From assembly GCA_903825575.1 (NCBI GenBank), contig CAIKAW010000004.1:1-50965 (forward strand): a DNA stretch of 50,965 nt, written 5' to 3'. Shown here in pieces: positions 38,990 to 43,475 of the stretch. The notes beneath the pieces were generated by a model. That model saw nothing but the letters and a program-made list of their open reading frames with translations, was not told where the DNA came from and did no database searches. The stretch comes from an uncultured bacterium. GTDB lineage: Bacteria; Actinomycetota; Actinomycetes; S36-B12; CAIKAW01. Both the position numbers and the translations under genes were made by a program. Position 1 is the first letter of the stretch. The number at the start of each line of letters is the position of its first letter.

Positions 38990-39571
38990 GTGAACCGCCG
39001 GGTAGTAGTTACCGAGGATGAGGCGTTGATCCGCCTTGATTTGGTCGAACTTCTTGTCGAAGCCGGCTATGAAGTCGTTGGCCAGGCCGGAGACGGGCAG
39101 GCCGGGGTTGATCTGGTGCGGGAACTGAAGCCGGATTTGGCTCTGTTCGATGTCAAGCTTCCCGGACTAGACGGAATCTCCGCAGCCGAACTGGTAGCCG
39201 ATATTTCGGCGGTGGTGCTGCTAACCGCCTTCAGTCAGCAGGAGTTGGTCGAACGAGCTGTGGCTGCCGGGGTTATGGCGTATGTGGTCAAACCTTTTGG
39301 AGCAGCCGATCTGCTTCCAGCGCTGGAGGTGGCTTGGGCCCGATTCCAGCAGGTTCGAATGCTAACCGCGGATCTGGATGCCGCCGTGGACCAGTTGGCG
39401 ACCCGAAAGCTGATGGATCGGGCAAAGGGGCTGCTGATGGTTGGGCACGGGATGAGCGAACCCGAGGCTTTTCGTTGGTTGCAGAAATCAGCGATGGATC
39501 GCCGTCGATCGCTAGCCGAGGTTGCTCAACTGGTTGTTGATGAGCTTGGTGGAAAGTCGTCAGCGGTGTAA
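38990..39571 (+). CDS. pdtaR: ANTAR-domain response regulator (PdtaR-like)
   Basis: A 193-residue regulator. The receiver domain (1-120) has the acidic pair TEDEALIRLDLVELL, phospho-acceptor Asp in LALFDVKLPGLDG, Thr in VVLLTAFSQ and Lys in AYVVKPFGAADLLPAL. The C-terminal ANTAR RNA-binding domain has LMDRAKGLLMVGHGMSEPEAF. ANTAR regulators bind paired RNA hairpins to prevent termination; mycobacterial PdtaR pairs with kinase PdtaS, not seen here. In mycobacteria the gene is also near polA. The 3' end overlaps the convergent DUF554 gene by 12 bp. Confidence 0.9.
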   Translation: MNRRVVVTEDEALIRLDLVELLVEAGYEVVGQAGDGQAGVDLVRELKPDLALFDVKLPGLDGISAAELVADISAVVLLTAFSQQELVERAVAAGVMAYVVKPFGAADLLPALEVAWARFQQVRMLTADLDAAVDQLATRKLMDRAKGLLMVGHGMSEPEAFRWLQKSAMDRRRSLAEVAQLVVDELGGKSSAV

Positions 39572-40330: not shown

Positions 40331-40768
40331 CTAGCGGTTATCGCGCAGTAGGCAAGTCAACCGAGCTGAGGCAACCTGATTGCCTTGTTCGTCGGCGATT
40401 GAAATGACGTAGGTGGCTGTTGTGCGTCCTAACTGGACAGCGGTCGCCGTGGCCTCCACGTGACCATCGCGCACCGCCTTGTGGTGGCTGATGTTCAGTT
40501 CGATCCCGACGGCACGACGACCCGGTCCCGCATGGATCTGGGCAGCATACGAACCGACGTGTTCGGCCAGAGCCGCCGAGGCCCCACCGTGTAGCAAGCC
40601 GAAGGGTTGGGTATTTCCTGTAACCGGCATCCGGGCTCGCACGAGCGTCGCGGAAGCTTCGAGCATCTCGATCCCCATGCGCTCGCCGAGGGCCCCGTTG
40701 CCCATCTCGGCTAATGATTCGTAAACGCCGGGCGCTGCGGTCACCGGTTGCTGGTCAGGCGAAGTCAT
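40331..40768 (-). CDS. Hotdog-fold acyl-CoA thioesterase (PaaI/4HBT-like)
   Basis: A 145-residue hotdog protein with the active-site helix FGLLHGGASAALAEHVGS, including the HGG motif and a catalytic Glu, and the strand GIELNISHHKAVRDGHVEA. This is the PaaI/YdiI group that hydrolyses aryl- or hydroxybenzoyl-type CoA thioesters; the substrate cannot be told. The ATG is preceded at 6 nt by TAGGGT and lacks a Shine-Dalgarno, so it is probably leaderless. Confidence 0.88.
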   Translation of the reverse strand: MTSPDQQPVTAAPGVYESLAEMGNGALGERMGIEMLEASATLVRARMPVTGNTQPFGLLHGGASAALAEHVGSYAAQIHAGPGRRAVGIELNISHHKAVRDGHVEATATAVQLGRTTATYVISIADEQGNQVASARLTCLLRDNR

Positions 40769-40774
40769 GACCTA

Positions 40775-40784
40775 ACCCTAGGAT
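40775..40784. promoter_or_regulatory. Overlapping divergent -10 boxes for the thioesterase gene and polA
   Basis: On the minus strand TAGGGT (40780-40775) lies 6 nt before the thioesterase ATG; on the plus strand TAGGAT (40779-40784) lies 6 nt before the polA GTG. The boxes share the TA at 40779-40780. The whole intergenic space is 22 bp, so both messages are leaderless and the -35 regions lie inside the opposite gene. Confidence 0.6.
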
Positions 40785-40790
40785 CGTGCC

Positions 40791-43475
40791 GTGAACGACG
40801 ATCAGAGCCCCCGGCTATTGCTCCTGGACGGCCATTCGCTGGCCTATCGGGCGTTCTACGCGGTGCCAGTCGAGAACTTCTCGACCTCAACAGGACAACC
40901 CACCAATGCGGTCCACGGTTTCACGGCCATGTTGATCAATGCGTTGCGCGACGAGAACCCGAGTCACGTCGCCGTTGCATTTGATGTCTCGCGGCAAACG
41001 TTCCGGACGGAACAGTACCCGGAATACAAGGCCACCCGAGCGGCCAGTCCGGAAGCCTTTCGAGGCCAGGTTGACCTCATCAAAGAGGTCCTTGCCGCGA
41101 TGCGCATCGTTGCCGTCCAGGCGGCGGGTTTTGAAGCTGACGATGTGATTGCCACCCTCGCCACCCAGGCCAAACGCGAGGGATTCCAAGTCTCGATCAT
41201 TACTGGGGATCGTGACGCGTTCGCCCTTGTCGATGGCGACATCACGGTGCTCTACCCGGTGCGTGGGGTGTCTGAACTTGCCCGGATGACTCCGGATGCT
41301 GTGTTTGCAAAGTACGGCCTGACTCCCGGGCAGTACCCGGATTATGCGGCGTTGCGCGGGGATCCAAGTGACAATTTGCCGGGCATCCCAGGGGTGGGCG
41401 AGAAGACGGCGGTGAAATGGATTCGCGATTTTGGAACGTTGGCGGACCTTGTCAGCCGGGTGGATGAGGTACCGGGTAAGGCGGGCGATTCGTTGCGGGC
41501 CGCACTAGCCCAGGTCCTAACCAATCGGCGCCTGACCGAACTTGTCCGCGATGTGGATCTCCCCGTGGCACCGGGGGATCTTGGCCGGGTCGACATTGAC
41601 GTCGCGGCGGTTGAGACGGTCCTAGCCTCGCTGCAGTTTCGTGCCCTACGTGAGCGCTTGTTCACTGTGCTAGGCCCGACACTACGCCCCCAGGTTGCCG
41701 TGGCTTCGCCTGAACAAGTTATTCCGGAACCTGAAGTAGACGTTCTTACCACCGCGACTTTGGGCGCCTGGTTGGACAAGTACGCGGGAATCGGATCTGC
41801 GGTTGCGGTCGACGTGGCTGGCAGTTGGGGCCGCGGAATTGGGCAGGTGCGTGCGCTGGCATTAGCTGCCGAAGGGCGCACGGCTTCGGTTGTTCCCGCT
41901 GAGCTTACGGACGACACGGCTTTGGCGGCCTGGCTTGCCGATCCAATGCGTCCGAAATGGTGGCATGACGCCAAGGGCCCGCTCCTAGCGCTGTGGTCAT
42001 CTGGACTCGACGTTGCGGGCATCGATTTCGACACCGCTGTGGCGGCCTACCTAGTGGCTCCGGGTCAGCGTTCATTCGACCTGAACGATGTCTGTCTAGC
42101 CTTCCTTGGTCATTCGCTGCCTGATTCTGATTCAGCAGATCAGTTGAGCCTGGACCTAGATGCGTCGCACTCAACTGATCATGCGGCCAGGGCGGTGGCG
42201 GTTCGTGAACTAGTTTTGGCGCTGCGCAAGGAAACCGAAGCAAGAGGCGCGCGTGACCTCTTTAACAACGTCGAACTCCCACTGGTGCGTCTCTTGGCTG
42301 AGCTTGAGCGGGTGGGCATAGCCGTTGACCAAGGCGTGCTCCAGCGGCTCGAAGCCGATTTCGCTGAGCAAAGCGCAGCGGCAGAACATCAGGCACATGA
42401 GATCGTCGGGCGGCCATTCAACCTAGGATCGCCCAAACAGTTACAAGAGATCCTGTTTGTGGAGCGCGGCCTACCAAAGACAAAGAAGATCAAGACGGGT
42501 TACACCACTGATGCTGACGCATTGCAGTGGCTTGCTTCCGCGTCCGACGACGCGCTGCTGCCGGTGCTGCTCCATTGGCGCGATGTCATTCGACTGAAGC
42601 AAACTGTGGCCAGCCTGATTCCGCTGGTGGCCGCCGATGGTCGAATCCACACCACGTTCAATCAATTAGTGGCAGCGACGGGTCGACTGTCTAGCACTGA
42701 CCCGAACCTGCAGAACATCCCGGTTCGGACCGAAGCTGGGCGTCGCATTAGGGCAGCATTCACGGTTGGCGCAGGCTTCTCCGAACTGCTTACGGCCGAC
42801 TACAGCCAGATCGAGCTGCGAATCATGGCTCATTTGTCGCACGATTCTGGACTTATCGAAGCGTTCCGAAGTGGCGAAGATCTGCACACGACGATGGCTG
42901 CAGGAGTGTTTGGGGTTGATCACCAGCAGGTTGATGCGGAAATGCGCAGGCGTATAAAGGCGATGAGTTACGGACTGGCGTATGGGCTTTCGGCATTTGG
43001 GTTATCTCAGCAACTCGGAATCGCGGCGAGCGAAGCCAAGTTGCTGATCGAGAACTATCTCGAACGTTTTGGGGGAGTACGCGCGTACCTGAACGAAGTT
43101 GTTGCTGCGGCACGAATCTCGGGCTACACCGAGACTCTGCTCGGACGGAGACGCTACTTGCCAGATCTGACTAGCGAGAATCACCAACGCCGCGAAATGG
43201 CTGAGCGAATGGCTTTGAACGCACCAATTCAGGGCTCAGCGGCAGATTTGATCAAAGTCGCAATGCTTCATGTTGATCAGGATTTGAAAGCGAGTGAACT
43301 CAAATCGCGACTGCTCCTACAGGTCCATGATGAACTTGTAATCGAAGTAGGTCCCGGCGAACGGGACCAAGTGGCTGAGATTGTGACTCGTCGCATGTCA
43401 GGTGCGTATCCGTTGTTAGTCCCGCTGGACATCAGCATCGGTACTGGGTCAACGTGGGATGAAGCCGCGCACTGA
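40791..43475 (+). CDS. polA: DNA polymerase I
   Basis: An 894-residue family A polymerase for Okazaki-fragment maturation and repair. The N-terminal 5'-nuclease (about 1-300) has LLLDGHSLAYRAFYA, AFDVSRQTFR and EADDVIATLA. The middle domain lacks the DxE exonuclease residues (reads AVAVDVAGSW), so proofreading is probably absent, as in other actinobacterial PolA. The polymerase domain has motif A DYSQIELRIM (about 670), motif B RRRIKAMSYGLAYG (about 719) and motif C VHDELVIEV (about 845). Motif B carries Tyr where Taq has Phe667. The stop touches the end of the convergent dprE2. Confidence 0.97.
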   Translation: MNDDQSPRLLLLDGHSLAYRAFYAVPVENFSTSTGQPTNAVHGFTAMLINALRDENPSHVAVAFDVSRQTFRTEQYPEYKATRAASPEAFRGQVDLIKEVLAAMRIVAVQAAGFEADDVIATLATQAKREGFQVSIITGDRDAFALVDGDITVLYPVRGVSELARMTPDAVFAKYGLTPGQYPDYAALRGDPSDNLPGIPGVGEKTAVKWIRDFGTLADLVSRVDEVPGKAGDSLRAALAQVLTNRRLTELVRDVDLPVAPGDLGRVDIDVAAVETVLASLQFRALRERLFTVLGPTLRPQVAVASPEQVIPEPEVDVLTTATLGAWLDKYAGIGSAVAVDVAGSWGRGIGQVRALALAAEGRTASVVPAELTDDTALAAWLADPMRPKWWHDAKGPLLALWSSGLDVAGIDFDTAVAAYLVAPGQRSFDLNDVCLAFLGHSLPDSDSADQLSLDLDASHSTDHAARAVAVRELVLALRKETEARGARDLFNNVELPLVRLLAELERVGIAVDQGVLQRLEADFAEQSAAAEHQAHEIVGRPFNLGSPKQLQEILFVERGLPKTKKIKTGYTTDADALQWLASASDDALLPVLLHWRDVIRLKQTVASLIPLVAADGRIHTTFNQLVAATGRLSSTDPNLQNIPVRTEAGRRIRAAFTVGAGFSELLTADYSQIELRIMAHLSHDSGLIEAFRSGEDLHTTMAAGVFGVDHQQVDAEMRRRIKAMSYGLAYGLSAFGLSQQLGIAASEAKLLIENYLERFGGVRAYLNEVVAAARISGYTETLLGRRRYLPDLTSENHQRREMAERMALNAPIQGSAADLIKVAMLHVDQDLKASELKSRLLLQVHDELVIEVGPGERDQVAEIVTRRMSGAYPLLVPLDISIGTGSTWDEAAH

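Follow-up and report, generated by a model that had tools for sequence, protein, structure and literature searches.

How are two divergent genes transcribed when only 22 bp separate their start codons? The question is raised by polA and a thioesterase gene in the window (the whole stretch of DNA analysed, 50,965 nucleotides from an uncultured member of the Actinomycetes). An earlier note on this DNA had proposed that each gene has its own -10 box in the gap, that the two boxes overlap on opposite strands and that both products are leaderless. It had also expected the two genes to compete, and had called the arrangement unusual.

Layout of the polA/thioesterase locus

The features of the locus are as follows.

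40331-40768, minus strand: 4HBT hotdog-fold thioesterase gene, ATG at 40768, predicted leaderless
40768, minus strand: predicted thioesterase transcription start (A of the ATG), from the 6-nt spacing
40775-40780, minus strand: -10 box TAGGGT of the thioesterase gene, reading ACCCTA on the plus strand and ending 6 nt before the ATG
40779-40780, both strands: TA common to both -10 boxes (2-bp overlap)
40779-40784, plus strand: -10 box TAGGAT of polA, ending 6 nt before the GTG
40791, plus strand: predicted polA transcription start (G of the GTG), from the 6-nt spacing
40791-43475, plus strand: polA (DNA polymerase I), GTG start

The thioesterase ORF (145 aa) matched the family models TIGR00369 and PF03061, and the polA ORF (894 aa) matched TIGR00593 and NF004397. 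The genes are divergent, with a gap of 22 bp (40769-40790). The plus strand from 40766 to 40793 reads CAT GACCTA ACCC TA GGAT CGTGCC GTG, where CAT (40766-40768) is the thioesterase ATG on the minus strand and the GTG at 40791-40793 starts polA. The gap length, both boxes, the common TA and the 6 nt to each start were thus all correctly given in the earlier note. A TANNNT box ending approximately 6-7 nt before the start codon, the sign of a leaderless gene used here, was present at both genes (6 nt in each case), and this register places the two predicted transcription starts 23 bp apart.

In bacterial bidirectional promoters, start spacings of 18, 10 and 23 bp are preferred (PMC12825309). Given this spacing, we read the gap as a conserved minimal bidirectional promoter that probably gives rise to two leaderless mRNAs (probability about 0.82).

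Close to polA there is also an ANTAR-domain response regulator gene (38990-39571 of the window); in Mycobacterium, pdtaR is likewise located near polA.

The 6-nt register against chance

As a bare pattern the 28-bp layout is not rare. The pattern CAY-N6-ANNNTANNNT-N6-RTG, with free N, had one match in this 2.2-Mb genome, as did the reversed pattern used as control, and it was not enriched across 99 genomes of the same order (147 matches vs. 142 for the reversed control). Fixing GG (TAGGNT, spacing 6-7) gave 66 matches vs. 31 in the control on both strands of 40 order genomes, a modest surplus in which polA itself is counted. The layout is significant because it sits at two start codons, because TANNNT peaks genome-wide at this 6-nt distance and because the box is conserved at polA in relatives. 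In 334 kb of stretches from this genome (270 called genes), TANNNT was found at spacing 6 in 31 of 927 candidate starts, while the counts at the other spacings (up to 40) ranged from 0 to 8. This peak, approximately tenfold over background, is what leaderless genes are expected to produce. At least one of the 33 divergent gene pairs called was predicted to be double-leaderless; the count is a lower bound, since the simple gene caller used overlooked the thioesterase ORF.

Conservation of each -10 box

Loci of polA were collected from the order genomes and from a set of 80 named genomes, most of them of other Actinomycetes. A box was counted when 6-7 nt separated it from an in-frame start codon close to the position where polA starts in the alignment. 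TANNNT was present in 136 of the 148 usable actinobacterial loci, while shuffled upstream DNA gives 2.5. On the other side of the gap, 53 of the 60 order loci that retain the thioesterase gene had TANNNT 6-7 nt before its start. Boxes in the same register in relatives were TAGGCT, TAGGGT, TATTCT, TACGCT and TAAGGT, with TACAGT, TACTCT and TAGTCT also found. The central bases differ (as in TATTCT, TAAGGT and TACGCT) around a constant TA and T; as TANNNT is part of the definition of the shared state, the invariance of T, A and T alone is not independent evidence.

These variants bear on whether TAGGAT and TAGGGT might instead be Shine-Dalgarno-like sites (AGGA and AGGG), with mRNAs that begin upstream, inside the opposite gene. 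AGGA does sit 7 nt ahead of the polA GTG, within TAGGAT, and could double as a weak site. However, the polA variants TACGAT, TAGTAT, TATGAT and TAAGAT lose AGG while keeping TA and the last T, which argues against this interpretation, and the thioesterase boxes TATTCT, TACAGT, TACTCT and TAGTCT likewise have no AGG. The 6-nt register also coincides with the genome-wide TANNNT peak, and we consider the Shine-Dalgarno interpretation very improbable.

In Microbacteriaceae the polA box was kept, no TANNNT box was found 6-7 nt before the thioesterase start, and the thioesterase gene had a leader with a Shine-Dalgarno-like site (loci inspected by eye). The polA promoters of this family (L122-L181) also carry a conserved GTCGG approximately 10 bp before TAGGCT, too close to the -10 box for a -35 element.

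Conservation of the shared TA

The earlier note had suggested checking whether the 22-bp arrangement is conserved in related genomes, and this was found to be the case. The overlap of the two -10 boxes on opposite strands, at the TA corresponding to 40779-40780, was present in 28 order genomes belonging to six of the seven families (f1, which is the window's own, f2, f4, f5, f6 and f7). The same bases were present in one further locus (L008) that is cut by a contig end. Two of the f6 loci matched named records without a difference over 1 kb, and one of these records is a Candidatus Nanopelagicales genome, which makes Nanopelagicales the most likely order of the window. The other 22 order genomes with both boxes had them offset by at least 12 bp. 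An A in the position of the final T of the minus-strand box was present in 31 order loci. In 28 of these the minus-strand start lay exactly 6 nt away, and one of the other three is on a truncated contig; among the 34 order loci lacking this A, none had a start at 6 nt.

A tree of polA, made with a quick method from 190 columns and having few firm branches, needed approximately 9 changes for the shared state vs. 22.6 with shuffled labels. This points to a TA-sharing state that is clustered by descent, yet has been repeatedly gained or lost. Sharing is not required, since the boxes lie apart in roughly half of the relatives that have both.

The shared core often contains CCTAGG, a perfect palindrome that is frequent among the shared loci and might serve as the operator of a regulator or as the site of some other protein, with TA included only by coincidence. 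However, three genomes of family f5 with AGAATAGGAT, as well as G003 (ACCTTAGGAT) and G025 (AGCGTAGGGT), break the palindrome and keep both TANNNT boxes. Judged from these loci, CCTAGG is not required at shared sites, and we consider an operator very improbable as well.

A different matter is whether the overlap has a purpose. Two leaderless promoters may simply have been packed tight by genome compaction, in which case the common TA would have no regulatory role. This explanation is compatible with the molecular layout proposed here, and we hold the chances that it is right to be about even. The order genomes are small, the thioesterase and polA have no evident functional link, and the several gains or losses of the shared state (9 changes on the polA tree) are in line with compaction. 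On the other hand, among the order loci with both boxes these were offset by exactly 4 bp or else by 12 bp or more, offsets of 5-11 not being seen, and TA-sharing was retained over six families at 65-78% polA identity; both observations count against compaction.

A probable minimal bidirectional promoter for two leaderless mRNAs

If the gap is a bidirectional promoter, a single RNA polymerase with the housekeeping sigma factor would bind it in either orientation. Transcription from TAGGAT would start at the GTG of polA, transcription from TAGGGT would start at the ATG of the thioesterase gene, and both mRNAs would be leaderless. Register and conservation lend good support to the overlapping -10 boxes and the leaderless products on both sides, as previously proposed, with transcription itself predicted from the sequence. 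Because the common TA would have to open for either direction, only one orientation could be engaged at a time. This part of the earlier proposal agrees with the literature, in which two polymerases cannot bind a bidirectional promoter simultaneously (PMC12825309). Its expectation that the genes should compete holds only conditionally. In five E. coli bidirectional promoters the basal activity was too low for competition, and only once one direction was boosted did the two sides compete and the opposite one become repressed (PMC12825309). By analogy, the promoter studied here may have a modest activity with low-level output both ways, and interference would arise only when one side is strongly activated.

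Bidirectional promoters with symmetric or overlapping -10 elements are attributed to Warman et al. (2021) in passages of PMC10268837 and PMC12825309. Like those promoters, in which divergent starts lie within 7-25 bp, the present one has predicted starts at 23 bp and -10 elements that overlap on opposite strands, and would have room for one polymerase at once. Unlike them, in that the spacing there is most commonly 18 bp and the divergent RNA often noncoding, both products are predicted here to be leaderless mRNAs and the promoter core takes up the whole intergenic space. The second parallel is M. tuberculosis, where, according to passages of PMC3898074, 73% of primary start sites are preceded by TANNNT at a distance of 7-12 bp, a -35 motif was not detected, and leaderless genes make up 22-26% of those with a start site. 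The -10 consensus and its position are the same as here, again with no evident -35 element. The same passages describe closely juxtaposed divergent promoters as common and include a divergent leaderless pair (prpD/Rv1129c); sharing of -10 bases at a double-leaderless pair, as seen here, is not stated in them.

Related layouts in the Actinomycetes

The description of the arrangement as unusual was not borne out. A start spacing of 23 bp is common, as are leaderless genes in Actinomycetota and, in the text cited above, juxtaposed divergent promoters in M. tuberculosis; the same double layout was also found at other divergent gene pairs of the class. A class-wide pattern search with TAGGNT as the plus-strand box detected the same layout somewhere in 240 of 395 genomes, partly by chance. 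Thirty of these loci were fetched, and approximately 20 were flanked by two divergent ORFs of 90 codons or more, some of them probably spurious in GC-rich DNA. Such pairs included proC-like/cation-efflux-like, rsmI-like/mannosyltransferase-like, dapD/dapE-like and birA-like/carboxyltransferase-like, as judged by protein sequence only, without family models.

A search for the 18-bp type revealed a site with a CTACCGTA core between dapD and dapE (identified by TIGR03535 and TIGR01900) in many order genomes, this one included.

G000:C46:6999-7021 (L202:2000-2022), divergent: dapD/dapE intergenic site, predicted double-leaderless

The dapD/dapE gap is 17 bp long. Its core is the symmetric TACCGTA/TACGGTA, and each start is 6 nt from a TANNNT box. 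The site was also present in L203-L210, L212-L216 and L218, and is conserved across families of the order. We predict that it is a bidirectional promoter for two leaderless mRNAs, with starts at the canonical 18-bp distance. It resembles the polA/thioesterase promoter in its predicted double-leaderless layout and in having -10 bases common to divergent genes. It differs in its TANNNTA core, its 18-bp start spacing and its 17-bp gap, and in that its two genes belong to one pathway. Literature searches on leaderless or bidirectional transcription of polA or dapD/dapE gave no relevant result.

The polA/thioesterase promoter is a deeply conserved, natural example of the already known bidirectional promoters, in which two divergent leaderless mRNAs, including that of DNA polymerase I, seemingly depend on the 10-bp ANNNTANNNT, and in which sequence alone predicts both start sites. 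What may be new is the recurrence of the double-leaderless form as a compact class in Actinomycetes. We propose, tentatively and as less probable than not, that minimal bidirectional promoters of the double-leaderless kind, whose -10/-10 overlap (of the 23- or 18-bp type) makes up the entire intergenic region, form a recurrent class selected to couple the expression of divergent pairs such as polA/thioesterase and dapD/dapE. Taken with dapD/dapE, the polA locus leads to a simple genome-wide prediction, namely that the gaps between divergent start codons in Actinomycetes should cluster at 17 and 22-23 bp.

In two loci of family f39 (L236 and L238), the proC-like and cation-efflux-like genes diverge over a symmetric ATCCTAGGAT core in which the -10 boxes share 2 bp, as they do at polA.
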